The notes under the pieces: model-generated
Database searches by the model: none
Told to the model about the DNA's origin: nothing
Seen by the model: only the letters and a program-made list of their open reading frames with translations
IMG/VR virus record: IMGVR_UViG_3300005935_000016
Location: 1-55,295 of that record
Strand: one strand, 5' to 3'
Source of the DNA: a virus
Length of the DNA stretch: 55,295 nucleotides
Position numbers and translations under genes: made by a program
Shown: positions 4,042 through 49,800 of the stretch, piece after piece
Numbering within the stretch: position 1 is the first letter of the stretch
How the letters are laid out: the number at the start of each line of letters is the position of its first letter

Positions 4042-4338
4042 ATGAGAGAAGAATTAATGACAAATGAATATTATGATAAATTTAGTGCTAGAAAAATATG
4101 TAAAGTGTTTGAAATTAAGTTCGAGCTATTCGAAGTTCCAGAAATCGAGCTTGAACGTATTAGAGGGGAGGTATTTTTAGCAATTCATTTTAAAAACCGG
4201 ATTATAAGAATATCTCACAACCGAACGATGAATTTTTTAAAATCAAATAACTATGATCATTTTAGAAAATATGATAATTGCGACAATCCAGGAAAAGGAA
4301 AGTATATTTGGGCAGTTAGATATGAGGTAGACAAATGA
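4042..4338 (+). CDS. Small hypothetical protein between RNA ligase and CCA-adding-type enzyme
   Basis: 98 aa, mixed alpha/beta and basic, no recognised motif. Its TGA overlaps the ATG of the next gene (ATGA), showing translational coupling with the nucleotidyltransferase. A second in-frame ATG at 4057 could be the real start because no clear SD precedes 4042. Confidence 0.65.
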   Translation: MREELMTNEYYDKFSARKICKVFEIKFELFEVPEIELERIRGEVFLAIHFKNRIIRISHNRTMNFLKSNNYDHFRKYDNCDNPGKGKYIWAVRYEVDK

Positions 4339-4748
4339 AACTAAAACAATTATTAGAAGAAGTAACAAAAATGATGCACCCTCACCCAGTATACGCAGTC
4401 GGTGGATGTGTTAGAGACTACATCTTAGAAATCGAACCGAAAGATTATGATTTTTGTACACCAGCTGAACCAGACGAAATAGAAAGATTAGTTAAGGAAG
4501 CTAAAAGACGTGCTTATTGTGTCGGGAAAAGGTTTGGAACTATTGGATGTAAGATTGATGGTGAGATGATAGAGATAACTACTTTCAGAACTGAAAAATA
4601 TGAAGAAGGAAACAGGAAACCTAAAGTTGAGTATGTGACTAACATTCACGAAGACTTAAGTAGACGTGACTTCACCATCAACTCCATGTGTATTTCTGGA
4701 AAAAAATTATTAAAACTTATAAAGATGAGGGAGAGAAAAGATGAGTAA
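4335..4748 (+). CDS. CCA-adding enzyme / poly(A) polymerase family, N-terminal catalytic fragment (split gene)
   Basis: 137 aa. Catalytic head of a class II (bacterial-type) tRNA nucleotidyltransferase: AVGGCVRD (21-28) binds the nucleotide, the metal-binding DYD is at 37-39, and RRDFTINSM (110-118) is the conserved end of the palm. After residue 121 the family pattern is lost and replaced by a Lys-rich tail (about 16 aa), while the rest of the enzyme is encoded from 5435 in another frame. An HNH endonuclease gene lies between and overlaps both parts. Whether the two peptides assemble into an active enzyme is unknown. Archaeal hosts normally use class I enzymes, so this gene was probably acquired from a bacterial or phage source. 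Confidence 0.88.
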   Translation: MKLKQLLEEVTKMMHPHPVYAVGGCVRDYILEIEPKDYDFCTPAEPDEIERLVKEAKRRAYCVGKRFGTIGCKIDGEMIEITTFRTEKYEEGNRKPKVEYVTNIHEDLSRRDFTINSMCISGKKLLKLIKMRERKDE

Positions 4749-5451
4749 TTTTTGTGATTGTGGATGTGGTCTAGAAACTAAAAAATATCGTGGAAAATAC
4801 AATAGATTTATTGTTGGCCATAATAATAATTTTAAAAAAGGCCATAATATGAATATTGACAGAATACCTTAGAATAAAGGATTAACAAAAGAAACAGATG
4901 AGAGAGTTAGAAATTATGGAATAACTGAAAGAAAAACCAAGAAAAAAATGTATAGCAATGGAGAATTAACAACATGGAACAAAGGTTTGACCAAAGGAAC
5001 AGATGAGAGAGTAAAAAAAAGTGCAAAAAATTATCCCCAAAAAAGGAAATCCCCAACATATTCTCAAGAAGAATTGAAAAGAAGACAAAATAGTTTTAGA
5101 GGGAAAAATAATCCAAATTTTAATCCAGATAAATCAGAATTTACTAAATATAAATTACAATGCAGATTTAATTTCAATCCAGGTTTATTTCCAGATGAGT
5201 TTGATATTACTAAAATTAGAAACATGTTTCATCCGACTAAAAACAAAACAGGTTATACGATGGATCACATGTTATCTATTTACGATGGCTTTACTAATAA
5301 TATAGACTCTAACATATTAAAACATCCGGCAAATTGTAATATATTATTACATAGAGAAAATTCCAGAAAAAACAAAAATTCATCAATAACTTTAAAACAA
5401 TTAAATAAAAAAATTATAACATGGGGGAAAAATTATGGTGAATATAACTAG
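4741..5451 (+). pseudogene. HNH homing endonuclease with NUMOD3-like repeats, interrupted by an in-frame TAG
   Basis: Reading from ATG 4741 gives an N-terminal Cys cluster (CDCGCG near 5-10, then FIVGHN), a TAG at 4870-4872, then NKGLTKETDERV and, from 4948, a second WNKGLTKGTDERV copy. The C-terminus holds an HNH-type nuclease (MDHMLSIYDGF, HPANCNILLH). The TAG sits where PWNKG is expected, so a TGG to TAG change explains it. An ATG at 4948 could yield a 167-aa product keeping one NUMOD3-like unit and the nuclease. The gene overlaps the upstream CCA fragment by 8 bases and the downstream one by 17, leaving no room for a group I intron. It looks like a free-standing homing gene inserted in the CCA-type gene. 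Confidence 0.85.
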
Positions 5452-6127
5452 AGAAGATATTATAGAATTTTGTTTGATAGACCCATTTAATGGTAGACAA
5501 GATTTAGAAAAAGGGATAATAAGAGCAGTAGGAATACCAAAACATCGTTTCAAGGAAGATAGTTTGCGTATATTGAGAGCGATTAGATTCGCGTCCAGAT
5601 TCGGTTTTGAAATAGAAGAAACTACTTACAAAAAGATGGGACGAATGTCAGTAAAGTTGTTAGAAATTTCTAAAGAAAGATGGATGATGGAAATGGACAA
5701 AATTTTAATGACCGACCATGTTCGAAATGGGCTAGAGAACTTATGGAAGTGCAACTGTTTTAAATATATGATACCAGAGTTATCATTACAATTTGATTAT
5801 GAACAAAACAGTCAGTATCACGATTACACTTTAGACGAACACACTATGAATGTCGTTGAAGATTGTCCTAAAGATTTAAACTTGAGATGGGCGGCTTTGT
5901 TGCACGACATCGGTAAACCTTTCGTAAGAACAAATAAAACAGTTAACGATGTATTCAAATCCAACTATGTAGATCACGAAGTATTGGGAGCAGACATGAT
6001 ATTGAAATTATCACGACATCTTAAATGGTCGAAGGATAGAACTAACACAGTCGTAGACTTAGTAAAAAATCACTTGAAGGAAGATAGTCCACTAAGAAAA
6101 TACGACAACATGAGAAAATTAAAATGA
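5435..6127 (+). CDS. CCA-adding enzyme family, C-terminal fragment with HD domain (split gene)
   Basis: 230 aa. It continues the class II nucleotidyltransferase: IDPFNGRQDL (15-24), the base-selecting EDSLRILRAIRFASRFGF helix (41-58), then an HD phosphohydrolase domain with H136, the H157-D158 pair (LLHDIGKP) and H181. HD domains in this family have phosphatase or phosphodiesterase activity on tRNA 3' ends. Its ATG at 5435 lies inside the 3' end of the HNH gene and is preceded by GGGGG with suitable spacing, so it is probably translated by coupling. The C-terminus at K230 is somewhat short compared with bacterial full-length enzymes. Confidence 0.87.
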   Translation: MVNITREDIIEFCLIDPFNGRQDLEKGIIRAVGIPKHRFKEDSLRILRAIRFASRFGFEIEETTYKKMGRMSVKLLEISKERWMMEMDKILMTDHVRNGLENLWKCNCFKYMIPELSLQFDYEQNSQYHDYTLDEHTMNVVEDCPKDLNLRWAALLHDIGKPFVRTNKTVNDVFKSNYVDHEVLGADMILKLSRHLKWSKDRTNTVVDLVKNHLKEDSPLRKYDNMRKLK

Positions 6128-8584: not shown

Positions 8585-8607
8585 CTATATACTAGAGGAT
8601 ATAAAAG

Positions 8608-8720: not shown

Positions 8721-9080
8721 ATGAGTGAAGAAAAAAAAATGATTGTCCCGACGGCGAAAGCTTGGGACGACGCAACTATGGGTAAATATATTAAATTACC
8801 AAACGACGGAACTAAACTTACATTGGGTATTACCAATTGGTCATTCTCAGAAAAAGTGTTTGATGAATCACAAGGACCTGTGATCATGATTGACATGGAT
8901 GTTTTTGAATACCAAGGAAATCCAGTAACCGACAAGGTATTTTCAAAAAGTGGAGCAAACTTTTTAAGTAAACTAAGACCGCATTTAGAAAGTCTTGAAA
9001 ACACGTCAAGAGTAAAGTTATCATTTTCACAACACGGAACTGGTAATAGTACTGTTTACGTTGTAGAAAAAGTTGAATAA
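8721..9080 (+). CDS. Hypothetical protein, possibly ssDNA-binding
   Basis: 119 aa, predicted mainly beta. The N-terminal MGKYIKLPNDGTKLTLGI and the C-terminal strands resemble the start of phage single-strand-binding-like OB-fold proteins, but without a diagnostic motif this is only a suggestion. It has its own promoter upstream and a strong terminator downstream, a monocistronic arrangement fitting an abundant DNA-binding protein. Confidence 0.6.
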   Translation: MSEEKKMIVPTAKAWDDATMGKYIKLPNDGTKLTLGITNWSFSEKVFDESQGPVIMIDMDVFEYQGNPVTDKVFSKSGANFLSKLRPHLESLENTSRVKLSFSQHGTGNSTVYVVEKVE

Positions 9081-9173: not shown

Positions 9174-9701
9174 ATGAAATATTTTAGTTTATTTAGTGGA
9201 ATAGGTGGGTTTGAAAAAGCCATAGAAACAATAATACCAGATGCAAAATGTGTAGGATATTCAGAAATAGATAAGTATGCTATAAAAACATACGAGAAAA
9301 ATTTTGGACTAGGAGTCAAAAACTACGGAGACATAACAACAATTAACGTAGGTGAATTACCAGATTTCGATTTGTTATTAGGTGGAGTACCATGTCAAAG
9401 TTGGTCTATCGCAGGAAAACGAAAAGGGTTCGAAGACATTAGAGGAACAATGTGGTTTGAATCTTTTAAAATTTTAAAAGAAAAACAACCTAAATATTTT
9501 ATATTTGAAAATGTTAAAGGATTATTATCTCACGATAAGGGGAATAGTTTCGAACGGTTGTGTGAACATATGTGTAGTTTAGGATATGTAATAGATTTCA
9601 CTGTGTTAAACTCTAAAAACTTAGGCGTTCCACAAAATCGAGAACGTGTTTTTATTTGGGGAATAAGAGGTGACTTACTTGACAAAGAACAAATTATATG
9701 A
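9174..9701 (+). CDS. DNA cytosine-C5 methyltransferase, N-terminal fragment (split gene)
   Basis: 175 aa with SD AGAGGTGAT before the ATG. Motif I FSLFSGIGGFEKA (4-16) binds SAM, motif IV GGVPCQSWS holds the nucleophile C74, motif VI ENV is at 112-114 and motif VIII QNRER at 154-158. The family sequence stops after FIWGIRGD, just before the target recognition domain, which is encoded after the HNH gene. Methylation would protect viral DNA from host restriction. The break falls between motifs VIII and IX, a permissive linker site, so reassembly of the two fragments is conceivable. Confidence 0.92.
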   Translation: MKYFSLFSGIGGFEKAIETIIPDAKCVGYSEIDKYAIKTYEKNFGLGVKNYGDITTINVGELPDFDLLLGGVPCQSWSIAGKRKGFEDIRGTMWFESFKILKEKQPKYFIFENVKGLLSHDKGNSFERLCEHMCSLGYVIDFTVLNSKNLGVPQNRERVFIWGIRGDLLDKEQII

Positions 9702-10098
9702 AGAGATGTATTTAAAATATCAAGACGGTTATTCGTTAGCCCAAGTTGGTGATGTGTTTGGAATGACTAGACAGTCCGTTTATTGTGGATTCAAAAGAAG
9801 AAAATTTATTTTAAGAATTAAAAAGAAATTAAAACATCTGATGTTTAATAATGTAAAATTTACTCCACAAAACAATGGATATTATAGGAATACAAACAGA
9901 AAAAAGGATTGCTTAATGCACCGATATGTTTGGGAATTTCACAATGGTAATATACCAAAAGGGTTTGACATACACCACAAAGATAGAGATAAATCGAATA
10001 ACATAATTAAAAATTTGGAGATGATAGAACATGGAAAACATGCCAGTAAATATTCAACCGGAAATAATCAATATACTAAAAAAATGGAGGAACAATAG
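9679..10098 (+). CDS. HNH homing endonuclease with N-terminal helix-turn-helix
   Basis: About 139 aa. I place the start at TTG 9679, six bases after AGAGGTG; GTG 9670 is an alternative. A helix-turn-helix (SLAQVGDVFGMTRQSVYCGF) is followed by an HNH nuclease: LMHRYVWEFHNG, FDIHHKDRDKSNN and NLEMIEHGKHASKY. This is the common free-standing phage homing endonuclease layout. It overlaps the end of the upstream methyltransferase fragment by about 23 bases and stops 3 bases before the downstream fragment, so it is wedged into one ancestral methyltransferase gene without intron sequence around it. Confidence 0.9.
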   Translation: MTKNKLYEEMYLKYQDGYSLAQVGDVFGMTRQSVYCGFKRRKFILRIKKKLKHLMFNNVKFTPQNNGYYRNTNRKKDCLMHRYVWEFHNGNIPKGFDIHHKDRDKSNNIIKNLEMIEHGKHASKYSTGNNQYTKKMEEQ

Positions 10099-10101
10099 CG
10101 A

Positions 10102-10836
10102 ATGGAAAATGAAAAAGAGACTGTTAAACAACTCAAACATTCAGATGTGGTGCAGTCCATTACAACAAATAAAGATAATGAGCGAGTTAAGTCCTATTAT
10201 GACAACATTATCGGAAGTTTTAGAGGAACAAGTGGATCAGAAATATTACCTTTCAGAGAAAGCGATAAATCGACTAACAAGACACACGGGATTCAAGAGC
10301 AAATTGCATCAACTCTAACTACTGCTGAAATGAAAGTAGGCAGGGGTATGAATATGATTGCAGATTTTCGTTACGATGAAGGATTACGAATACGAAAAAA
10401 CAATATTACTCCATGTTTATGTGCTACAAATCATTCTGAAAATGATCCTAGCTCAATGCCTGGAATTGTAATAAGACATCCTTTAAAATTTATTAACAGA
10501 AACCAAAAAAATATAAAAGGAGATTACACATACACGGTAGATTCAGCAAACACTGGAGGAGTGATGATACAATCACATTGTCCTAGAAGTGGCAATCCTA
10601 ATAAAGGCGGTACGGGTTTATTAGAATCATCAAAACATTGTTTTACTTTAGATCGATCACCATATTATGTTAATAAAATTAGACGATTAACACCAACAGA
10701 ATGCGAACGATTACAAGGGTTTCCTGATGGTTGGACTAACAGTGTATCTGACACGCAAAGATATAAACAGTGTGGCAACGCAGTAACAGTTAGTGTGATT
10801 GAAACCATTATGACAAAACTAAAAGAGGTATTATAA
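10102..10836 (+). CDS. DNA cytosine-C5 methyltransferase, C-terminal fragment (frameshifted near its start)
   Basis: 244 aa as read from ATG 10102. It carries motif IX RRLTPTECERLQGFPDGW and motif X QCGNAVTV at the C-terminus, with the target recognition domain before them. The family-like sequence at the beginning is in a different frame (see 10109-10318), so residues 1 to about 62 of this reading are probably artefactual. Restoring one base in the G run at 10288-10290 joins the two frames. Either the gene is decaying or the consensus lost a base. Confidence 0.8.
   Translation: MENEKETVKQLKHSDVVQSITTNKDNERVKSYYDNIIGSFRGTSGSEILPFRESDKSTNKTHGIQEQIASTLTTAEMKVGRGMNMIADFRYDEGLRIRKNNITPCLCATNHSENDPSSMPGIVIRHPLKFINRNQKNIKGDYTYTVDSANTGGVMIQSHCPRSGNPNKGGTGLLESSKHCFTLDRSPYYVNKIRRLTPTECERLQGFPDGWTNSVSDTQRYKQCGNAVTVSVIETIMTKLKEVL
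10109..10318 (+). pseudogene. Out-of-frame first part of the methyltransferase C-terminal fragment
   Basis: From ATG 10109 this frame reads a segment typical of C5 methyltransferases, LSEVLEEQVDQKYYLSEKAI followed by NRLTRHTG, then leaves the family pattern and stops at 10318. The downstream family sequence (IQEQIASTLTTAEM) continues in the other frame from about 10291. One extra G at GGG 10288-10290 would give RLTRHTGIQEQIASTLT as one reading frame. Confidence 0.7.
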
Positions 10837-15097: not shown

Positions 15098-15487
15098 ATG
15101 GACACGTCTACAATTTTAAAAGATTTCGTTGGTCTTCCACAAAAAATTTATAACTCAGAGACACGTTATTTCGAACTAGAGACCACTAAAGAATCTCTGA
15201 TTCGGACTCTGAAAGAGTTAAAAATGAATTATATGAAACAAATAATTTTAGAAGTCTGTGAGAATAATCAAAAAAAGTTTAAAAATGAAACTCACCGTAA
15301 TTCAGAATTGAATGCTAGGTTAAAAATGGACGTAATATATTTAAAATTAACCACCGATATAACCAACGTCAACAATTTATTAAATGATATTAAAGCAACA
15401 TTAAACCTATTAAACAATACTCGAGTAGTATACGATAGGATTTTACAATTCACCAGTAAATCAACCATAACAAATGATTTACGCTAA
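15098..15487 (+). CDS. Hypothetical coiled-coil protein, leaderless
   Basis: 129 aa, helical throughout, Asn/Lys/Leu-rich with heptad character around residues 20-115. No SD; translation is probably leaderless from the TATA box at 15068. Begins the operon that leads into the glycan genes. Function unknown. Confidence 0.65.
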   Translation: MDTSTILKDFVGLPQKIYNSETRYFELETTKESLIRTLKELKMNYMKQIILEVCENNQKKFKNETHRNSELNARLKMDVIYLKLTTDITNVNNLLNDIKATLNLLNNTRVVYDRILQFTSKSTITNDLR

Positions 15488-24781: not shown

Positions 24782-24967
24782 ATGATAATAGAGAACAGAA
24801 AGGATAAAAAAGAATACGATATCAGTGAATTATTAGAACTTCCAGAAATACAACAACTAATAAAAGACAAGAAAGATAAACGGAACGAATATTTCCGAGA
24901 GTATTATAAAAAAAATAAAAAAAAGAAAAAAAGTAAAGAAAAAATTACGCCTGAATCTTCAGGGTAA
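24782..24967 (+). CDS. Small, highly basic protein (61 aa)
   Basis: Acidic-amphipathic first half, then a run dominated by Lys and Tyr (residues 33-52). Could bind nucleic acid. Its last 23 bases overlap the convergent - strand lipoprotein gene, marking the meeting point of the two arms. Confidence 0.5.
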   Translation: MIIENRKDKKEYDISELLELPEIQQLIKDKKDKRNEYFREYYKKNKKKKKSKEKITPESSG

Positions 24968-26561
24968 CTTCTAATTTTTCTTCTGGTAACATCAACTTAG
25001 CTTCATCATTATCAGCGCCATTTTCTGGTTCTGAAATAACAACTCCAAATGCAGTTAATACATCATATTCTGAAGTACCAACATTATTACCATTATAAGT
25101 CAAGTCGTCTGCTTCTGCATCTTCTTCTTCAAGTCCAAATCTTTCTTCTGAAGCATCTGCGTTAACTACAATAACATTTCCATCTTCGTCTGTTAATGAA
25201 ACTGCACCTTCTAAGTCGAAAGCCAATTCATAAACAACACCATCAAGATCAATTGTTGCGGTTAAATCAGTTAAAACAACATAATCGTTGTCTTCTTCAT
25301 AGTATAAACTTGTACCATCTGAGTAGATAACATTAACATTTTCGTCATCAACTTCTAAAACATCGTCGTCTGCTGAGATTGCTGTTACTTGAACGTCAAC
25401 TCCAGCTACATCGATTTCGTCGAAGTAAATTTCTAGTTCCACGTAATCAACTTCGCTAACTGAATCTAAACACAATGTAATATATTCGTTAGGGAAAGAT
25501 AGACATTCTGAAACTGCTAATGCTGTAACATCTGAATCTAATTTGTTAAATTTCTCATCTAATGCTAATGAAATACTTAATAAGTTAGTTCCATCGTCTT
25601 CAATGTTCCATTCCCACATTTCTGCTTCATCTAAATAGTCACCAGATTCGATTGTCTGTTTAGCACTTTCACCTAAAATCAACATAGCTGAACTATCTGA
25701 TTTAGTGTCTTTGTTAAATAAACTTTCGACGTAAACTGTAAGACCATTAACTGTTTCAGTTTGACCCTCGCTTACTATTTCTGTTAAACCATCAACATCG
25801 ATAACAACTGCTGAAGAACCAACATCAATTAAAGTTAGTGTTTTTTCTTCTACTGTTACTGTATCATCGACAGTTACATAATTAGACTCTGTTCCAAGGT
25901 ATGTTAACTCACCAGATTCTGCGTTTACTATTTCCATATCAATTCCTAATACTGAGATTGATAACGGTGTTTCATCGCTAATATCTGTTAGAGCAACATC
26001 ATCTTCAAATGTGTAAACATATGAAACGGTGTCTCTTACTGAACCAACTAAATATGGATCAGCTCCAAATTCGTCTTCGAAATCTGCATTTCCTGAATAA
26101 GCAACGAATAAATCGTCACCTAATACCACAGACTCTTTTACTTCTATTTCTTCATCATCAAAGGTAATTTTTCCATCGTATAATACAGCTAACTCATTAT
26201 CATCTAATGTTTTAGAAATACTATCACCAAGTGAATACTCCTTTGTATATTCAACAACTTCATCGGTCTCTTCTGTTTCTGTCACTTCATCTGTTGTTGC
26301 ATCGTCGGTCACCTCATCGGTTACCGGTTCTGTTTCTTCGGAAGTTTCTTCTTCTTCTGAAACTTGATTTTCTACTAGTTGTGTATACTCATCAGAGTTT
26401 TTATATTCATCTATTGAGGATTCTGCTGCATTTGCGATCGCGTCACTTAGCTGATCTTCTGTGTATGTAACTTCTTGTTCTGTACATCCACTGATCATAG
26501 CCATAGCCAAAAGCAAAACAACGATTCCAACAATTGTGAATTTTGTTTTTTTTGTAGACAT
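24945..26561 (-). CDS. Lipoprotein resembling DPANN S-layer-like proteins
   Basis: 538 aa. A lipoprotein-type signal (VGIVVLLLAMAMISGC, lipobox Cys26) is followed by a coiled acidic segment and a Glu/Thr/Asp-rich linker to about residue 110. Then come beta-rich repeats with SLGDSISKTL, DGKITFDD, ADPYLVGSVRDT, TVEEKTLTLIDVGSSAVVID, QTETVNGLTVYVESLF and DEAEMWEWNIEDDG. This order closely matches my recollection of S-layer-like proteins in Woesearchaeota and Pacearchaeota. SD GGAGG precedes the ATG. It should be exported and anchored on the infected cell. It could mask receptors against superinfection or alter the host coat; the role is inferred. Strongly acidic overall. Confidence 0.8.
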   Translation of the reverse strand: MSTKKTKFTIVGIVVLLLAMAMISGCTEQEVTYTEDQLSDAIANAAESSIDEYKNSDEYTQLVENQVSEEEETSEETEPVTDEVTDDATTDEVTETEETDEVVEYTKEYSLGDSISKTLDDNELAVLYDGKITFDDEEIEVKESVVLGDDLFVAYSGNADFEDEFGADPYLVGSVRDTVSYVYTFEDDVALTDISDETPLSISVLGIDMEIVNAESGELTYLGTESNYVTVDDTVTVEEKTLTLIDVGSSAVVIDVDGLTEIVSEGQTETVNGLTVYVESLFNKDTKSDSSAMLILGESAKQTIESGDYLDEAEMWEWNIEDDGTNLLSISLALDEKFNKLDSDVTALAVSECLSFPNEYITLCLDSVSEVDYVELEIYFDEIDVAGVDVQVTAISADDDVLEVDDENVNVIYSDGTSLYYEEDNDYVVLTDLTATIDLDGVVYELAFDLEGAVSLTDEDGNVIVVNADASEERFGLEEEDAEADDLTYNGNNVGTSEYDVLTAFGVVISEPENGADNDEAKLMLPEEKLEVTLKIQA

Positions 26562-26584: not shown

Positions 26585-26638
26585 GTATAGTAATAACTAT
26601 ACTTTGTTATTTATAAACTTTATTATTTATAAAAATTA
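26585..26638 (-). promoter_or_regulatory. Promoter with two TATA boxes and an operator-like palindrome
   Basis: On the - strand, two TTTATAAATAA-type boxes (about 26624-26636 and 26607-26617) precede the lipoprotein gene. GTATAG-TAATAA-CTATAC (26585-26602), a perfect 6-bp inverted repeat, sits just downstream of the second box, where a repressor would block initiation. SD GGAGG and ATG follow. Confidence 0.5.
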
Positions 26639-26645
26639 TATAATT

Positions 26646-26855
26646 TTAGTACAGTTTTATTGCACTACTTGTTTTCATTCTTAATAAGACATTTCCAACG
26701 ATCATTACGATACTAAATATTTGTAATGCTACGCCTGAAAGTAATCCTGAATCGATTAATGCGGTTGCTACTGTTGCGATTGCAGCTAAAACATTAAACC
26801 AAAACGTCCAACTTTCCCATATCTTTTTAACTATAACTTCTTCTTTTTTTGCCAT
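26646..26855 (-). CDS. Holin-like small membrane protein
   Basis: 69 aa. Two predicted membrane helices (about 18-34 and 41-57) after a charged N-terminus with WESWTFWFNVLAAIA, ending in a basic tail. This WTFWFN pattern is common in small phage membrane proteins annotated as holins. Strong SD (GGAGGAA). Neighbours suggest a lysis group. Confidence 0.65.
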   Translation of the reverse strand: MAKKEEVIVKKIWESWTFWFNVLAAIATVATALIDSGLLSGVALQIFSIVMIVGNVLLRMKTSSAIKLY

Positions 26856-26868
26856 TATTATTCCTCCA

Positions 26869-27111
26869 TCATATTACTGATTGAATTATTACAACCACAA
26901 CGGATGTGAACACTGCTGTTACGACACCAGTAGTGCCGATAATTTTAGCTAATTTTAAACTATTAGTTTTAATTTCCCGTTCGTGTTCTGCAACTTTACC
27001 GTTAAGTTGTTTTAGATGTTCACCAATGTTTTTCATTTCATTCTTAATAACTGCGACATCTGTCGTCAAGTTTATTAACATATCTTTGTTTGTCATTCCA
27101 CTGTTTCTCAT
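26869..27111 (-). CDS. XhlA-like membrane-associated protein (holin accessory)
   Basis: 80 aa. N-terminal heptad region (about 12-50, VAVIKNEMKNIGEHLKQLNG) and one C-terminal membrane span (GVVTAVFTSVVVVIIQSVI) match the shape of haemolysin XhlA-type proteins of phage lysis modules. SD GGAGA at 9 bases. Confidence 0.65.
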   Translation of the reverse strand: MRNSGMTNKDMLINLTTDVAVIKNEMKNIGEHLKQLNGKVAEHEREIKTNSLKLAKIIGTTGVVTAVFTSVVVVIIQSVI

Positions 27112-27123
27112 TTTTTGCGTCTC

Positions 27124-27873
27124 CTATATTAAAGTACTTTTTTGTGCCCACGAATATTCGTTGTTAAACGTCCACCAGATATCTTTATATTTTTTCATAT
27201 CATTGTGTGGGACTTTTTTAAATGATTTCACACTTTCATTATACCAATAACACCAATCTAATACATACCATTGATCGTCATCGGCTAAATAAATTACATA
27301 TGCGTGACCGACTTGTTTCTTTTTGTTACTTGGATTCTCAACGAAACCACAACATACCTTTACCCGGTAACTCGGTACACCAGCAATCAACATCATACTA
27401 GCTAACAATAATGCACCATCTTCACAATCGCCCTTTTTAGTTTGATAAGTTTCTTCTGGTGTTTGCCAATATTCTGCCTGTTTATGAGTAACGAAATCGC
27501 CAACATATGTTAAACGTTTTTTAACGTATTTTAACATACCTAACGCGGTATCGTCGTGTGTTTGTTTTTGTTTACTTTTAGACAATTTGTCTAATATATG
27601 TGATTTGTTAAATATTAAATTTCTTACATCTGCAGTTAACTTGCTTGAAACACTGTATGTAATACTATTCTTTTTCCATTTATTATTCCAATCATTAGCA
27701 ATTTTTTCTAGTTGTGTTTTACTAGTTAAAACCAGTAATTCACTGACAAGTTTACTATTTTCGCTAGACAACTTTTCAACTTCTAATAATGAATCATCAT
27801 ATAACTGTTGTTCTTCATCGAACACCAAATCGTAAATCGTTTGTTTTATTTTATGTATTAAGAGTTGTTTCAT
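27124..27873 (-). CDS. Transglutaminase-like cysteine protein, candidate cell-wall peptidase
   Basis: 249 aa. Helical N-terminus (1-100), then a transglutaminase core with C150 (KKGDCEDGALLLASM), H190 (VGHAYVIYL) and D206 (YVLDWCYWY) as the Cys-His-Asp triad. Archaeal virus enzymes of this fold include pseudomurein endoisopeptidases. Next to two holin-like genes, a role in host envelope opening is plausible. Transglutaminase-like proteins also occur in tails, and this gene directly follows the fibre gene, so a virion role remains possible. No signal peptide. Confidence 0.75.
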   Translation of the reverse strand: MKQLLIHKIKQTIYDLVFDEEQQLYDDSLLEVEKLSSENSKLVSELLVLTSKTQLEKIANDWNNKWKKNSITYSVSSKLTADVRNLIFNKSHILDKLSKSKQKQTHDDTALGMLKYVKKRLTYVGDFVTHKQAEYWQTPEETYQTKKGDCEDGALLLASMMLIAGVPSYRVKVCCGFVENPSNKKKQVGHAYVIYLADDDQWYVLDWCYWYNESVKSFKKVPHNDMKKYKDIWWTFNNEYSWAQKSTLI

Positions 27874-27874
27874 T

Positions 27875-28936
27875 TTATTTGTTACTCGTGTCTATGTTGT
27901 ACACGTACCCCATGCACGAAAAACCTTCGTCTGCTGGCGTTGTCACGACTATTTTCCATGATGCACTTGTGCCAGTCGTCGAAAAATAATGTGGTCGTTC
28001 TAGTACAGAAGTCTCGAAGTCACTATCGTTCGCGCTAAGGCTAAGAGTCATGTTAGTGTATGCTGAATTAGTATACCCAGTCGTAATGTTTGGAAAAAAC
28101 AATGCTGAGTATGCTGTGTCAGTGTTAACCAACGTTTGTCCAGTTACTTGTATTGTACCAGTTACTCCGCCACCTTGAACATACCGTACTTCTAACACCT
28201 GCATTGAAGCCGTTTGTGCTGCACCAACATTAGTTTGTACTCCAATAAAATATGTTGCACCAAGTCCCGACAAGTCTACTGCGCCAGACCAAGCTGACCA
28301 TTCTGTTCCTGCAGTCGAAAATGAACGATAGTATGCGTTCTCTGTTGCTGCATCATAATAAATTTCGTATAATGTGTTAGAAGTTACACTTGAGAATATT
28401 GTGCTATAAGACGACGGTCCATCTGCTGCGATAATTCTTCCAGTACCGCCAGATGTTGTTACTGTCCCAACATGAATGAATACTGTACAATCTCCGTCAG
28501 TTAACTTGAAATCTGTTACTGAACCATCAGAAAATACTGTATTGTTTGCACTACCAACTGCCGGCAAAGCTTCAGAAGATATCGTTAATATTCCACCACT
28601 TACAGTAGTAGTGTTTGATCCATCTGATACAGCAGCTTGTGAATTTGTCCACAACGTTGTATCTAATGCAACGCCAGGGAATGTGTCATACAAGTTTGCA
28701 ATGTATGTTACACCATAATCTGAACCGGCATTGACAGAATCTCCACTATCATAATCTTCTGAACCGTTTCTTACTAAAATTGAATATTGTCCACTTTCTT
28801 CTCTATCAGACTCTGCGTCAATTAACCATTTTAAAGCAACACCTCTAAAGTTAGATCCTATAGTATCTAAAATCCTGTCTATGTCCGCGGCATAAAATAT
28901 TTCGCCGTCAGTTTTTGGTAAATCTCCAGCAGCCAT
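27875..28936 (-). CDS. Tail fibre-like protein
   Basis: 353 aa, beta-rich and Ser/Thr/Gly-rich, without signal peptide. The N-terminus (TDGEIFYAADIDRILDTIG) resembles fibre attachment regions. A central part (about 80-255, VALDTTLWTN, GILTIS, YEIYYDAATENAYYR) looks like a concanavalin-type lectin sandwich. Likely binds host glycans. It sits after the baseplate genes, where receptor-binding proteins usually are. Confidence 0.7.
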   Translation of the reverse strand: MAAGDLPKTDGEIFYAADIDRILDTIGSNFRGVALKWLIDAESDREESGQYSILVRNGSEDYDSGDSVNAGSDYGVTYIANLYDTFPGVALDTTLWTNSQAAVSDGSNTTTVSGGILTISSEALPAVGSANNTVFSDGSVTDFKLTDGDCTVFIHVGTVTTSGGTGRIIAADGPSSYSTIFSSVTSNTLYEIYYDAATENAYYRSFSTAGTEWSAWSGAVDLSGLGATYFIGVQTNVGAAQTASMQVLEVRYVQGGGVTGTIQVTGQTLVNTDTAYSALFFPNITTGYTNSAYTNMTLSLSANDSDFETSVLERPHYFSTTGTSASWKIVVTTPADEGFSCMGYVYNIDTSNK

Positions 28937-35166: not shown

Positions 35167-35200
35167 TTATTACATTTATAAACCTAATTTCTAGATATAT
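35167..35200 (-). promoter_or_regulatory. Conserved late-promoter motif, copy 1
   Basis: Contains TTTATAAA, two bases (CC here) and TAATTTCTAGATATATAT as read on the + strand. On the - strand, TCTAGA lies upstream of the TATA box and the gene at 35109 follows 60-90 bases later. The same motif occurs at 45679 and 49767. It begins at the stop codon of the upstream gene. Confidence 0.65.
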
Positions 35201-36717: not shown

Positions 36718-39615
36718 TTATCTTCTCCTATTTTGTATGGTTTCTGCCCATGTATATGACCGACTGCTATCGTATAGCCAACCAGTTGATGTGTTTAATT
36801 CTGACGTTAAAGATTTAGCTGGATAAGCAGGATCTCTTTTTGAACTAGAGTTAGTATCAAAGTATATTACAAACCATTTTGTCGAGTTAACTACTAAATC
36901 AGTTACTGTCTTCCACACGTATTGTACAGAATCAGTTGTTGTCTCTTTATAGTATCCAAATTCTATTAAGTTTACTACTGGCGTTTCGATTGCAGTATCA
37001 CTCATTAACAAACACTGTGCCTGTACATATCTAGATTCGTTTAAATTAGTTAACGTTGTGTTTTGATAATAATATGATGACCAGTTGTAAAATGATGTAA
37101 CCTCGTTTTGTGATAACGATCTATTGTATATAGCAACTTCGTCGATAGTACCATTAAACTGATCGATAATGTGATCACCAGTATTAAAGTGTCTAGCTCC
37201 AATAAAAAATCCAGTGGTTGATGAAACAAATCCAGCGTGCCAAGTTTCACTATCTTCTAAATTACCATTCACATACATAAGAACATCAGTTCCATTATAT
37301 GTCGCCAACACGTTATACCAACTAGTGTTGAGTATTTCAGTACGACCATTCAAAAATGTAGATCGATCTGTACCATTTCCTATTCTAAAATCTAAAAGAT
37401 TATTATCCCTAATTCTAAAATAAAATCCATCGTAAGTAACATCTGGAATACCAACTGCGATGATTGATTGATACGAGTCAGACTCGGATTTTTTAATCCA
37501 TGCTGATACTGTAAAATCTCCTGATATATTTAATGCAGGGTCTGTAATATTTATCATTCCATTATCTAAATCGAATGCTGACGCATTTTCGCCACTAAAT
37601 ACTCCGTATGTCGAATTAGGACATATCACACAAGTTCCATTAAAATTTCCTTGTTCATCTACAAATATATTGTAAGTTTCTCCAAGAGTAGCATTATTAT
37701 TTAATTTATAATATGATACTAATGATGTATCTGTAATATTAGGTCTTAACAAATCCGCGTTTCGTATTCTACAACTAAAATTACTCGGTTTATATATTGT
37801 TGACGTAAATATTCTTCGATATTCTACGAAATTTACACTAGGTCCAGCATCTATGATAGACGTTGTAAAATTACCGACTGTCGCGAACAGACCAAAATCA
37901 AATATTTCTTTTACGTTTGTTGGTGATAATGTACGATTCCATAAAGCGACTTCGTCGATTGACCCGTTAATTGATACGGTCGGTGACGAAACATAAAAAA
38001 CATTAGATGATTTTAATACTGTAGAACTATTTAATAACGAAGTACCAACCAATGAGCCATCGTAATAAGCCGACAAATATGTGTCATTCGTACTAACACA
38101 TACATGATGCCACTTGTAATCAAAATTTGATCTGCTAGGAACACTAAATGAATATGTAGAATCTGCAGTCCCATATAAATCGTAGTCTTCATATCTAACT
38201 ATATAATTTATATCTTCTGTATCATAATTATAATCAATATGTCTAAATCCATAAGCACCAGACGTGATAACTCTTGGATACATTAAGGTTGAATTACCAA
38301 CGATATAAAACCATGCACAAGTTGTAACATTATAACCACCGGTTTTGTTTATTTCACTAGCCCCGACAACAGTTAAAGAATCATCATCATTATCAAAATC
38401 ATATCTTTCGTGTACATGTATTATATTAGCAGATGGAGTTAAATCATAACCATTACCGCTAGTGTCTTTTGCATCCTTAGTAAATGGATAATTTGCAACT
38501 AGTCCAAAATTTAAAATATTAGTAGTGTTAAAATGTACATTTACGAACTCGATAGTGTCATCTGATGATATGTTATATGATTCGTACAACGAATTTAAAT
38601 CCGCAGTAATTGTAAATACAGTAGAATGAAATCCAGTCTTATATTGACCAGTGTTAATATCGAATTCAATTACAGATTCTGTTGATGGATCATAATATTT
38701 TATGTCGTCAACAGAGCCGATGTCATTATAATTATATATCGGTACACCACGTTGTGATAAGACAGATTGTTCTGCTGTTGATAATGATAGTTTTTCAATA
38801 GATTCTGTTGTCAATGGTTCACAAATTAACTGTACTTTATCGTTAAAAACAAATTCGCAATTATCTTCTTTTTCGTATACGTTTATAACGTAATATCCTA
38901 AAATACCCCCAGTTGGTATGATATATGTGTCTAAAATTGATTGTTCGGAAATAGAAGTTTTTTCTATATCTACCCCATCATCTAATTCGATGACAGGATC
39001 GATGTCTATATTACCATATTGTGGTTTGTAAGTATAATAAATTTTTCCGTTATATTGAGTAACGTAATTTAATTTTTCGATGTCAGTAGAGTAATCGAAA
39101 ATTAACCAACCATCTTGTATTGATGTGATGTTAGTTTTCTCTTGATTGACAGAATATATAGTTCCTTCATTCGTTACATCTAACTCTGTGTTTTTGTTAC
39201 GTAAATAACATTTAGAGTCTTGATCTTCGGGTGTCCAAGTAACACTGTCTTTAATACCAGACGATGTAATTACTAAACTACGTGTTAAATTTCCCTTTGA
39301 ATAATAAATGTCTTGTGAGATAATATATTTGTTATCTTCTTCTTCGTAGTGTATCTCACTATATTTTGTACCACGTTGTTTATACACAGTTTTATAACGA
39401 CTGTCTGACAAACAATATGGTTGCCATACACTTTCGCCGAGGTTTGAATAACCTTGTTTTATTTTTAACATTCCGTCATTAAAATATAAATCATAATCTT
39501 TACTTAATTCGTTTGGTATAGTAATTAATGCAGTGTCCTGTGTTATATATATTCCCATACCGCCAAACACGATAAGCGCAATTAATGCGTAATTAATAAT
39601 ATCTTCTTTTTTCAT
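36718..39615 (-). CDS. Membrane-anchored LamG-domain surface protein (965 aa)
   Basis: A hydrophobic N-terminal segment (residues 8-25, YALIALIVFGGMGIYI) predicts a signal anchor. Beta-rich region to about 380, then two LamG/concanavalin domains: one with DTSGNGYDL, WHHVCVSTND and GSIDEVALWNRTLSPTNVKE, the next with NGTIDEVAIYNRSLSQNEVT. Many N-x-S/T sites are present, consistent with an N-glycosylated extracellular protein. LamG proteins of exactly this wording are very common in DPANN genomes. Lying inside the virion gene order it may be an adhesin, but a signal anchor is unusual for a tail fibre. Confidence 0.8.
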   Translation of the reverse strand: MKKEDIINYALIALIVFGGMGIYITQDTALITIPNELSKDYDLYFNDGMLKIKQGYSNLGESVWQPYCLSDSRYKTVYKQRGTKYSEIHYEEEDNKYIISQDIYYSKGNLTRSLVITSSGIKDSVTWTPEDQDSKCYLRNKNTELDVTNEGTIYSVNQEKTNITSIQDGWLIFDYSTDIEKLNYVTQYNGKIYYTYKPQYGNIDIDPVIELDDGVDIEKTSISEQSILDTYIIPTGGILGYYVINVYEKEDNCEFVFNDKVQLICEPLTTESIEKLSLSTAEQSVLSQRGVPIYNYNDIGSVDDIKYYDPSTESVIEFDINTGQYKTGFHSTVFTITADLNSLYESYNISSDDTIEFVNVHFNTTNILNFGLVANYPFTKDAKDTSGNGYDLTPSANIIHVHERYDFDNDDDSLTVVGASEINKTGGYNVTTCAWFYIVGNSTLMYPRVITSGAYGFRHIDYNYDTEDINYIVRYEDYDLYGTADSTYSFSVPSRSNFDYKWHHVCVSTNDTYLSAYYDGSLVGTSLLNSSTVLKSSNVFYVSSPTVSINGSIDEVALWNRTLSPTNVKEIFDFGLFATVGNFTTSIIDAGPSVNFVEYRRIFTSTIYKPSNFSCRIRNADLLRPNITDTSLVSYYKLNNNATLGETYNIFVDEQGNFNGTCVICPNSTYGVFSGENASAFDLDNGMINITDPALNISGDFTVSAWIKKSESDSYQSIIAVGIPDVTYDGFYFRIRDNNLLDFRIGNGTDRSTFLNGRTEILNTSWYNVLATYNGTDVLMYVNGNLEDSETWHAGFVSSTTGFFIGARHFNTGDHIIDQFNGTIDEVAIYNRSLSQNEVTSFYNWSSYYYQNTTLTNLNESRYVQAQCLLMSDTAIETPVVNLIEFGYYKETTTDSVQYVWKTVTDLVVNSTKWFVIYFDTNSSSKRDPAYPAKSLTSELNTSTGWLYDSSRSYTWAETIQNRRR

Positions 39616-39616
39616 T

Positions 39617-41386
39617 TTATATACCTATCAACTCTGTAATATCTGCAGATTCATATGGCAATGCGTAACATTGATTGTTTACATAATCTACAACGCCTGA
39701 CGCGTTTAAACATTGTCCGTATTGGTTTACTTCATAAACTCTAATCGAATTTTGGTCGACATAGACCTTATCTGATTTACTAGAGTCGTATAATTGTAGT
39801 ACATCATCAGCCGACAATGTTTTATTAAGTATAATTAAACTATCAACTGTTCCGTTCATTGAATTATAAGCAGTAATATATATTTGAGTTTTGCCTAAAT
39901 TTATTGCACCGTCAACAAAACCTGATGCGACTTCGTCTACACCATCATAATATATCGTTGCATTTTTGTCTGTTTTATTATAAGTTAAACAAGTAAAATG
40001 CCAATCCCTGTCTGTATAATTTCCTAAACCATAGTTACCTATCACTATATTAGAATTATTTTCTGTATCAATTCTAGCGTATATTTGATTAGTGTCGTGA
40101 ATACCAGTAAAATGTAATCTAAATCGTCCTAAAGACCCGTTTCCAAGAGTAGATAATGATTCGTAATCTGTATATTCGTCTTCTTCTAATTTAGACCAAA
40201 TACACATCGAGATGTTATCATTCGACAAATCTAAATCTGATACAGCAGAATGCAAATACGAGTTATACCCGTCACAATAAACACCTTTTAAAATCTTCCC
40301 ATCATATACCCAATCAGTGTTAAAATCTGTCAGTGTATTATCGCCAACGATATCGTCAGTTTGACTTTCTTCGAATGGGTAATACGAAATAATATTATCT
40401 TCCATCCCAGATAAATCGTAATTTTGTGGACCAAGACCCAACTCTAAAAACTCTGTATCCCAATCGATAGTGTGATTAAATACTGGGATCGTCCAATTTC
40501 TTGGTCTATATGAATTATAAACATAAGTAATTTCTTCATCTGTCAATGATCTATTCCATATCATAAATTCGTCAACTGACCCGTTAAAATCGTTAACTTG
40601 ATTACCGTTAGCTAATAAACCGCCAATTAATATTTTAGCGTTTGAATCAAAAACCTGAGTTACTGTTTGGTTTAACACTGTTGTCACATCTTCCTGTTCA
40701 CCGTCTATATACATTTTAAAACTGCCATTATTAAACACGAAACCGATATGATGCCACTCGTCGTCTCCAACATCTGTTGTCGATCTAAATAGTTTTTGAG
40801 CTCCGATTGTTCCAGTTTGTTGAACTCTCATGTCTAATTTTGAAGGGACATTCCTAGAATATACCATATGCCATGAACGTTGATTGTTACCGAAATCGAA
40901 ATGTGAAACTGGACTACCGCCAGACTGAGACGGTCCTTTTGTCCATGCAAATACACTTAATTGTGTTCTGTTGTAACCAGTCTCTGGATAATCGGGAATA
41001 GTAATATAATCATTTTTTCCATCCACGAGATAACAGTCTTGTATTTTACAAGCCTCATACGAACCAGAAAACTCTGTTCCGTCGTGAGTAGAAATACTAT
41101 CTTCAGCGTTATTTTCTAAACGATACCATGCTGTTAAGCCATCGTAAACACTAGAAGTAGAAATAATTGGTGCTCTTTCATAATTTTCAATGCTAAATAT
41201 TGTGGCGAATGTCCACGTTTCGTTTTCTAATGCATCATGAACTATTGACCACGAGGGTATAGTCGACAATCCAATGTTTCTAATCGAATCAGAAATTGGA
41301 AAGCCAGAAATTATACTAATAACTAATAAAAGCAAAATAAGTATGCTTAATAAAATACAAAAAATTTTTTTGTTAACTTGTTTCAT
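39617..41386 (-). CDS. Membrane-anchored LamG-domain surface protein (589 aa)
   Basis: I choose ATG 41386; an upstream TTG at 41395 is possible. One hydrophobic N-terminal helix (IFCILLSILILLLLVISII) anchors or exports it. LamG domain 1 spans about 80-290 (GLTAWYRLENNAEDS, WHHIGFVFNNG, GSVDEFMIWNRSLTDEEIT) and domain 2 about 330-560 (IISYYPFEES, WHFTCLTYNKTD, GTVDSLIILNKTLSADDVL). Related in design to the larger protein next to it. It probably binds sugars at the cell or virion surface. Confidence 0.8.
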   Translation of the reverse strand: MKQVNKKIFCILLSILILLLLVISIISGFPISDSIRNIGLSTIPSWSIVHDALENETWTFATIFSIENYERAPIISTSSVYDGLTAWYRLENNAEDSISTHDGTEFSGSYEACKIQDCYLVDGKNDYITIPDYPETGYNRTQLSVFAWTKGPSQSGGSPVSHFDFGNNQRSWHMVYSRNVPSKLDMRVQQTGTIGAQKLFRSTTDVGDDEWHHIGFVFNNGSFKMYIDGEQEDVTTVLNQTVTQVFDSNAKILIGGLLANGNQVNDFNGSVDEFMIWNRSLTDEEITYVYNSYRPRNWTIPVFNHTIDWDTEFLELGLGPQNYDLSGMEDNIISYYPFEESQTDDIVGDNTLTDFNTDWVYDGKILKGVYCDGYNSYLHSAVSDLDLSNDNISMCIWSKLEEDEYTDYESLSTLGNGSLGRFRLHFTGIHDTNQIYARIDTENNSNIVIGNYGLGNYTDRDWHFTCLTYNKTDKNATIYYDGVDEVASGFVDGAINLGKTQIYITAYNSMNGTVDSLIILNKTLSADDVLQLYDSSKSDKVYVDQNSIRVYEVNQYGQCLNASGVVDYVNNQCYALPYESADITELIGI

Positions 41387-41387
41387 T

Positions 41388-41780
41388 TTATGCAATTGTA
41401 TGCTTGTAAACGACTGTCACATAAATCGTATGTGTAGTAATCCCAGCTGCACAATGCAGTCTAATAGGAACAGTGCTTAAATCTGAAAAGTTGTCAAACT
41501 CGATTCGTTTAGTACTACCTAAATTAGCATAATAAAATTGTGCTTGTAATACCCCATCACTATCCTCGTGTGCGGGATCTCTCTCGTTTGCTGTACTCGC
41601 CGTAGCTTTTCGTAGTAAAGTGAATTTTGCGTCAGCGTCTGCTGCTACTGAATATACGTATAATGCCTGAACACTCCATTTAGTATCACGGTTTAGTGTT
41701 AGTGCTTGTTCATAGTCATCTGAACCGTTATAAGCTAATGAATATGTTTCTGTAAAAAGTTGATAATCTGATTGTCCCAT
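41388..41780 (-). CDS. Hypothetical virion-region protein, beta-sandwich (130 aa)
   Basis: Beta-rich, no signal, with SVQALYVYSVAADADAKFTL and IRLHCAAGITTHTIYVTVVY. Such small beta proteins between capsid and fibre genes are often virion decoration or fibre adaptors. Its stop lies just before the LamG gene start. SD GGAG. Confidence 0.55.
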   Translation of the reverse strand: MGQSDYQLFTETYSLAYNGSDDYEQALTLNRDTKWSVQALYVYSVAADADAKFTLLRKATASTANERDPAHEDSDGVLQAQFYYANLGSTKRIEFDNFSDLSTVPIRLHCAAGITTHTIYVTVVYKHTIA

Positions 41781-41854: not shown

Positions 41855-42613
41855 TTATACTGGATTTCCGTCTGCTTTCCATGCAAACAGTTTTGATGGA
41901 TCTGAACTTTCTACTCCGAATGATCCAGCTTGTGTGTAAATCAAACCAAATGATGTTCCTAAAGCCCCTGATCCAGCGTTAACCGATACTATTGGTGCGT
42001 CGAAAAATGGTGTTCCGAATACTACATCTAGTTTACTTCCAGCTCCTGTTTCTCCGGTAGCTCTGAGGGTTGTAGTTTGTGTCCATGCTGTTGGACTTCC
42101 GTTGAGTGCAGTCCGTGGCATTCTGTGAACACCTGCTTCAGAAATGTTAGATCCTTGTATATCACCTGTTGAATAAACTTGAGCTCCTGAGATCATTACG
42201 TCTCCAAACACTCTACCTGCTTCTACACTTCCTGTTGCGAATACATTCAATCCTGATACATGTGTTGCTCCAATTACTGTGTCACCAGTCACGCTTGCGT
42301 TTGCGTAAACGTTGTTTCCTGATACATGTGTTGCTCCAATTACTGTGTCACCAGTCACGCTTGCGTTTGCGTAAACGTTGTTTCCTGAAACCATTACGTC
42401 TGCTACAACTTTGTCTGCTTGTACACTGCCTGCTGCGAATACATTAGTTCCGCTTATGGTTGGTGTCGTGAATGATGTTGTTGCATATATAGTTGTACCA
42501 CTAATTGTTGCTGATTGCACACTAGTTGCACCATAAACATTAGTTCCGCTAATAACCGCTGTTGAGGTTACTGCTTGATTTACTTCTTCAAATCCTAATC
42601 CGTCTGTTGTCAT
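41855..42613 (-). CDS. Head fibre / repeat-containing virion protein
   Basis: 252 aa. The first 160 residues are repeats of about 22 with a core such as SGNNVYANASVTGDTVIGAT, suggesting a trimeric beta-helix shaft. A C-terminal knob of about 90 residues follows (TTLRATGETGAGSKLDVVFG). Its place directly after the capsid gene suggests a head fibre. SD GGAGG. A terminator-like T tract lies on both sides. Confidence 0.65.
   Translation of the reverse strand: MTTDGLGFEEVNQAVTSTAVISGTNVYGATSVQSATISGTTIYATTSFTTPTISGTNVFAAGSVQADKVVADVMVSGNNVYANASVTGDTVIGATHVSGNNVYANASVTGDTVIGATHVSGLNVFATGSVEAGRVFGDVMISGAQVYSTGDIQGSNISEAGVHRMPRTALNGSPTAWTQTTTLRATGETGAGSKLDVVFGTPFFDAPIVSVNAGSGALGTSFGLIYTQAGSFGVESSDPSKLFAWKADGNPV
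42252..42383 (-). repeat. Perfect 66-bp tandem repeat in the fibre gene
   Basis: Two adjacent 66-bp units (22 codons) are identical at the base level as far as I can see. Flanking units are diverged versions of the same 22-residue pattern, so the array expands by recent duplication. Confidence 0.8.
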
Positions 42614-45678: not shown

Positions 45679-45712
45679 GATTTATAAATGTAATTTCTAG
45701 ATATATATTTAA
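45679..45712 (-). promoter_or_regulatory. Conserved late-promoter motif, copy 2
   Basis: ATTTATAAATGTAATTTC followed by TAGATATATATTTA on the + strand. It extends into the stop region of the gene ending at 45709. The head gene block from 45596 downward would be its target, with a leader of about 60 bases. Confidence 0.65.
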
Positions 45713-49766: not shown

Positions 49767-49800
49767 TTATAAATGTAATTTCTAGATATATATTTATAAT
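49767..49800 (-). promoter_or_regulatory. Conserved late-promoter motif, copy 3
   Basis: TTTATAAATGTAATTTCTAG then ATATATATTTATA on the + strand, matching copy 2 nearly exactly. On the - strand the TATA box is about 45-50 bases before ATG 49720. The 137-base gap 49721-49857 has no gene besides this. Confidence 0.65.

Follow-up and report, generated by a model that had tools for sequence, protein, structure and literature searches.

A viral lipoprotein derived from the middle module of S-layer proteins of DPANN archaea

We analysed the whole of IMG/VR record IMGVR_UViG_3300005935_000016 (positions 1 to 55,295; 55,295 nt, hereafter the window), which comes from a tailed virus, and in particular an open reading frame (ORF) of 538 amino acids (aa) with an ATG start at 24945..26561 on the (-) strand, whose product (P0001) is an S-layer-derived viral lipoprotein. 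An earlier note on this DNA had claimed that an S-layer-like module of DPANN archaea forms the basis of a lipoprotein of the virus, and searches of archaeal genomes bear this out, with E values down to 3.2e-43 in three archaeal phyla. The ORF, the lipobox and the three ordered segments that the note described are all in place, and the segments fall on conserved columns of the archaeal S-layer alignment.

The protein is composed of three parts. Residues 1–26 (26484..26561, (-)) form a signal peptide that ends, by regular expression, in the lipobox ISGC (residues 23–26), Cys26 being the predicted lipid-modified residue. Residues 27–114 (26220..26483, (-)) form an acidic low-complexity stalk that does not align with cellular S-layer proteins, and residues 115–538 (24948..26219, (-)) constitute the S-layer middle (core) module, which ends where the C-terminal anchor half starts in the cellular proteins. 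The three segments conserved in the alignment lie within this module: DVGSSAVVID (residues 246–255; 25797..25826, (-)), TVNGLTVYVESLF (residues 270–282; 25716..25754, (-)) and the W-x-W segment WEWNIEDDG (residues 316–324; 25590..25616, (-)). The stalk is indeed acidic (28% D+E and 4% K+R in residues 1–106), but acidity is not specific to it, as the module is nearly as acidic (25.6% D+E), and we dropped it as a special stalk property. The archaeal lipoprotein signature, a signal peptide with a lipobox cysteine, is found in the window protein (ISGC) and in its ortholog from a second virus (LSAC), lipidation itself being predicted. A simple regular expression detected no lipobox-like motif in the first 60 residues of 61 cellular S-layer ORFs, a set in which L051 and L054 represent one ORF and some members lack a complete N-terminus. 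A lipobox-like protein is present too in a cellular Nanoarchaeota metagenome-assembled genome (MAG; L132).

Exact-peptide scans found no cellular relative among genome contigs, and among viral contigs only the same virus. Because these scans missed all cellular relatives, DPANN genomes were reached by way of the LamG domains of two other window proteins, and the phyla of these genomes were then searched with the lipoprotein at a threshold of E≤0.001, the phylum labels being those of the MAGs used as search centres. Matches were obtained in 10 of 34 genomes in the phylum of an 'archaeon' MAG, in 26 of 156 in that of an Aenigmatarchaeota MAG (best 8.3e-40), and in at least 62 of 371 in that of a Pacearchaeota MAG (best 3.2e-43, 36% identity over residues 87–536), a lower bound because at most three candidates were scored per genome. 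With an alignment of both viral proteins as query, 37 of 287 genomes matched in the order of G198, a set that overlaps with the phylum of the Pacearchaeota MAG. The independent controls were negative: no match was found among 196 genomes in the phylum of a Micrarchaeota MAG, nor among 21 bacterial genomes having only LamG domains in common. From 61 cellular loci, the 52 ORFs of at least 640 aa were thinned at 60% identity to 37 diverse relatives, all of which the module matches by BLAST at E<1e-3 (37/37, best 9e-48), whereas the best of 500 composition-preserving shuffles of the module reaches 0.003 and the reversed sequence 0.27. As the 37 relatives came from this same query, the shuffles test composition and not discovery. 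The module, about 420 residues long, aligns end to end with the cellular middles at 24–36% identity and retains their invariant columns. The similarity to archaeal S-layer proteins over about residues 110–340, on which the earlier note had made its claim depend, is therefore real, but its extent is larger, reaching the last residues (up to 537). It is detected in genome searches and not when the protein alone is compared with family libraries: against Pfam, PHROGs, NCBIfam and PDB sequences P0001 gave only weak matches, none of them credible. A profile of the module gave nothing convincing in the PDB (best 0.51, nanobody chains), and neither viral protein (P0001, P0002) matched annotated phages. 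An AlphaFold model built from the two aligned viral sequences was rejected as evidence, given its mean confidence (pLDDT, the predicted local distance difference test) of 42.7 and a Foldseek search without a match at E≤0.001.

The cellular relatives show what the viral protein lacks. The Pfam domain PF05124 (S_layer_C, 'outer domain') is found in 36 of the 37, the exception being L064, and has no match in P0001 or P0002. When five relatives were scanned one by one, the PF05124 profile spanned from residue 26–38 to residue 634–714; its alignment thus covers nearly the entire protein, and the domain is therefore split, the middle being an insertion within it. In another relative (L044) the best PF05124 stretch is the C-terminal half only. 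The C-terminal half of L085 matches PDB entry 9FSA (E 1.9e-4), which, according to the SymProFold paper (PMC11410804), comprises residues 24–75 and 484–576 of the S-layer protein from Methanococcus voltae and is a crystal structure of the anchor-dimerising domain. The viral protein aligns with the inserted middle only, and ends within a few residues of the point at which the cellular proteins continue into the C-terminal anchor half. Lacking the defining domain, the viral protein falls outside the PF05124 S-layer family proper, yet it is made from the family's middle module. It shares this middle with the DPANN and Methanococcus-type S-layer proteins, and the CxxFPxxYxxxC pair is retained as in many cellular members; it differs from them in having neither anchor half and no sequons in the module, in being more acidic, in the added lipobox and stalk, and in being encoded by a virus. 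The exception L064 (L133:3579-5867) is a cellular protein with an S-layer middle, no PF05124 and a different C-terminal part, and indicates that cells too separate the middle from the anchor domain.

The window encodes a terminase (PHROG match 3.3e-28), a portal protein with a Mu F-like domain, an HK97-type capsid protein and a tape-measure protein. The same virus was found on three further contigs, all of which continue past the right end of the window, by up to about 12.8 kb; the record is therefore a partial genome. One of these contigs carries the lipoprotein gene, 100% identical over residues 1–342, where the contig stops. A scan with the module alignment identified a second virus (IMGVR_UViG_3300005326_000008, 59,634 bases; hereafter virus 2), whose 514-aa ortholog has the lipobox LSAC, a stalk and the identical truncation, at 44–46% identity to the window protein (46% over 432 residues). 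By BLASTP the two genomes otherwise share little, the matches being limited to a segment of one tail protein, 103 residues of a small protein, and some glycosyltransferase- and methyltransferase-like genes; the window portal has no match in virus 2, which has its own Mu-type portal. The lipoprotein gene closes the structural cluster in both viruses, with tail and fibre-like genes before it. Further alignment scans of viral contigs returned only these two viruses or nothing at all, but such scans depend on short conserved peptides and may overlook relatives. The two viral proteins group as a single clade (support 100/100, stem 1.23) in a tree of 39 sequences, nested among the cellular ones beside L069 (98/93). 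Two cellular sequences (L053 and L104) were flagged as long branches and no rows were dropped; both viral rows were flagged for unusual composition, so that their exact placement may be disturbed. A single viral clade inside the cellular tree implies either one old capture or transfer between the two virus lineages.

Viral and cellular modules also differ in glycosylation sequons (N-X-S/T) and in acidity. Neither viral module contains a sequon, whereas each of the 37 cellular modules contains 3–9, for a total of 226 against 205 expected from composition. The viral modules, given theirs, would be expected to hold 3.0 and 2.9 (p 0.039 and 0.041), which is suggestive, although not proof, of a real loss. 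The two LamG proteins of the window have about twice the expected number of sequons (31 against 15.2 and 17 against 8.0), and their absence is therefore no general trait of the virus. The D+E content of the viral modules (25.6% and 25.5%) is above that of all 37 cellular ones (maximum 23.6%).

The expectation that the S-layer module would give a clue to the host group was also borne out, since a related capsid gene with common neighbours lies in the same phylum as the Pacearchaeota MAG. This capsid relative, 54% identical, belongs to a genome from the phylum of G198, where it is carried on a 27.8-kb contig; G198 was itself found by the search in the phylum of the Pacearchaeota MAG. Portal, protease and tRNA-nucleotidyltransferase genes of the same contig match as well. 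Capsid relatives are present in 6 of the 371 genomes of that phylum, the other five at 25–28% identity. In virus 2, an S26-peptidase-like protein is 38% identical over 132 residues to one in a Nanoarchaeota MAG. These sequence matches make a DPANN host well supported at the phylum level, with the caveat that viral contigs may be assigned to MAGs by binning. A different lipobox-type protein gene (L143:5364-6422) was observed on a 421-kb contig of a DPANN genome, in a likely provirus where portal and protease-like genes flank it; lipoproteins may be common in viruses of DPANN archaea.

The region upstream of the lipoprotein gene carries several elements that bear on its expression. An archaeal-type element resembling a TATA box with a B recognition element, the 17-mer AAAGTTTATAAATAACA, was recognized as a sequence motif at 26605..26621 (-), and a second TATA-like box lies at 26625-26633 (-). 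Between the 17-mer and the gene, 23 nt upstream of the ATG, is an operator-like inverted repeat, GTATAGT-TATT-ACTATAC (26585..26602, (-)). The window contains exactly two copies of AAAGTTTATAAATAACA, for 0.0002 exact occurrences expected under a first-order model; the other, at 8604 (+), precedes the early-strand gene at 8721 ('early' being a reading from strand and gene content). In addition, the 18-mer AATAATAAAGTTTATAAA, which overlaps AAAGTTTATAAATAACA, is found again before the early-strand gene at 15098. Three late genes are preceded by a different promoter-like element, TCTAGAAATTA adjoining TTTATAAAT (35185-35195, 45691-45701 and 49776-49786, all (-)), which a viral late regulator may recognise. 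Because its upstream elements match early-strand regions, unlike the three late-strand promoter regions, these motifs suggest that the lipoprotein gene is expressed separately from the late operon. At its 3' end the gene has a terminator-like stem with T-rich DNA behind it (24950..24963, (-)), a weak feature, as five such sites occur in the region for 2.0 expected.

The adjoining gene (26646..26855, (-)) encodes a small hydrophobic, perhaps holin-like, protein that matches DUF7940 below the cut-off; in virus 2, a 69-aa hydrophobic protein is encoded on the opposite side of the lipoprotein copy. Beyond it, at higher coordinates, lie a gene for a protein with a coiled coil and a membrane segment, weakly XhlA/haemolysin-like, below the curated cut-off (26869..27111, (-)), and one for a transglutaminase-like (papain-fold peptidase-like) protein (27124..27873, (-); PF01841, 1.5e-10). 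Upstream of this cassette lies the gene of a fibre-like protein (27875..28936, (-)), with a fibre-like gene at the same place in virus 2. A common start of the two fibre proteins, PKTDG[ED]IFY, seen by eye, was dropped as evidence of homology, as BLAST gave no significant match.

Other features of the window were observed in passing. A tRNA CCA-adding-enzyme-like gene (4335-6127, (+)) is in two parts around an HNH-endonuclease-like ORF (4948-5451), and the corresponding parts are close together in a related virus contig of G232; the insert is probably an intron or a homing element. A DNA cytosine methyltransferase-like gene (9174-10836, (+)) is apparently split, from its translations, by another HNH-like ORF (9670-10098). 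A gene at 41855-42613 (-) contains near-identical tandem repeats of about 66-72 bases each, and BLAST pieces suggest that their copy number differs in another contig of the same virus (L004). Finally, the two LamG proteins (592 and 965 aa; 36718-41395, (-)), which have N-terminal hydrophobic segments and are encoded within the structural cluster, are likely glycosylated surface or virion proteins.

What might such a protein do? The earlier note had suggested a block of receptors, disturbance of the coat for exit, or a self marker, and the evidence can at most rank these putative functions. We propose that the virus took a host S-layer gene and retained only the middle inserted in the anchor, by analogy the lattice-building core, while both halves of the split anchor would have been lost and a signal peptide, a lipid anchor and a stalk of 66-88 residues put in their place. 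During infection the protein would be exported, tethered outside the cell membrane and positioned level with the S-layer. In Nanoarchaeum the gap beneath this layer is reported to measure 20 nm (PMC5744192), and we estimate that the stalk could bridge it if extended. The tethered module would then pair with host subunits in the S-layer, or replace them, in a putative assembly. With the S-layer surface, the putative receptor of the virus itself, masked or replaced, other virions would not adsorb to the infected cell and progeny would not stick to debris, an action like that of T5 Llp but exerted through lattice substitution. By analogy, we tentatively favour this masking or replacement of the receptor surface by a membrane-tethered S-layer subunit, to which we give somewhat less than an even chance, over its main rival, in which the protein serves release, because HFTV1 and HRPV-6, two haloarchaeal viruses, use S-layer proteins as receptors (PMC9973310) and T5 Llp excludes superinfection. 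The absence of sequons from both modules agrees with it, because a surface freed of glycan receptors would be expected to lack them. The early-strand-type elements upstream of the window gene would fit too, since T5 Llp is an early lipoprotein (PMC9586334). In a more specific form, which we consider rather unlikely, glycan-free, lipid-anchored subunits without the host anchor would displace host subunits, so that the coat stays while the surface recognised by viruses is lost; if true, the cell would be closed to superinfection through exchange of the receptor layer rather than through blocking of a receptor.

Several observations weigh against this preferred reading. HFTV1 itself is described as lacking exclusion at adsorption (PMC9973310); the receptor of the window virus is only putative, and the AlphaFold prediction (pLDDT 42.7) is uninformative about assembly of the module. 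The sequon loss is statistically weak (p about 0.04 for each of two related proteins). In virus 2 the gap upstream of the gene is occupied by a short ORF, and no matching promoter element was found there. Furthermore, the position of the gene at the end of the structural cluster, beside small membrane proteins, is equally compatible with lysis. The main rival builds on this position, after the tail genes in both viruses: an anchor-less tethered subunit made late would enter the S-layer, break the lattice or its link to the cell and open the coat, a role equivalent to that of spanins but in a cell lacking peptidoglycan. Loss of a dimerising anchor would be the pattern of a dominant-negative subunit, and the window neighbours with XhlA-like (below cut-off) and transglutaminase-like peptidase folds, like the S26-peptidase-like protein of virus 2, would fit lysis. 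However, the lysis assignments of these neighbours are all weak, in the window virus elements of the early-strand type precede the gene in an upstream region of its own, and conservation of the whole module at 46% is not required of a poison; we regard such a role in release as possible, but less probable than masking or replacement of the receptor surface. The same display logic would serve an outward marker or decoy that alters attachment of competing viruses with other receptors, host–symbiont contact or predation, and DPANN archaea are described as relying on cell contact; with loss of the anchor explained no better than by the other readings, we find this improbable. There is similarly little to recommend a generic secreted protein in which the module is reused for an unrelated job such as adhesion or ligand binding: L064 shows that cells separate the middle from the anchor domain, but the viral copy gains only an anchor and a stalk, with no new domain, and the complete middle, to its C-terminal end, is retained in two diverged viruses. 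As for a host contig, a chimera or chance similarity, the stalk is of low complexity and nothing else was found in its favour, whereas the gene is 100% identical in a second assembly, its ortholog lies among the tail genes of virus 2, and shuffles and control genomes are negative, which makes this explanation very improbable indeed.

Known viral systems offer partial parallels. T5 Llp, an early lipoprotein of a lytic phage, excludes superinfection and keeps progeny off debris (PMC9586334), and the protein described here resembles it as a small viral lipoprotein placed in the envelope, early expression being a feature of Llp (PMC9586334). The two differ in mode of action: Llp works allosterically on the receptor FhuA, to which it binds in the periplasm, whereas the viral module would mimic the receptor layer; the likeness drawn here is one of kind and placement. 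Cor of N15 and phi80 belongs to the relatives of T5 Llp. A gene annotated as S-layer-type is present in the OM43 phage Melnitz, whose authors postulated protection from superinfection (PMC9004378). Compared by description and not by sequence, Melnitz differs in its bacterial host and in resting on annotation, and the available part of the source describes no anchor swap. A literature search limited to open-licence papers turned up no description of an archaeal S-layer module encoded by a virus, the Melnitz annotation being the nearest.

Viral handling of the archaeal S-layer, in entry, exclusion or exit, is little explored, as are the viruses of DPANN archaea. An S-layer core with a swapped anchor provides a direct experimental handle, since it involves a single gene, a defined domain change and a testable binding partner. 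The finding links two mostly different tailed viruses to DPANN hosts and indicates that the host layer is probably attacked by the virus. It suggests that the viral S-layer copy alters the surface of the infected cell, perhaps excluding rival viruses or aiding release.
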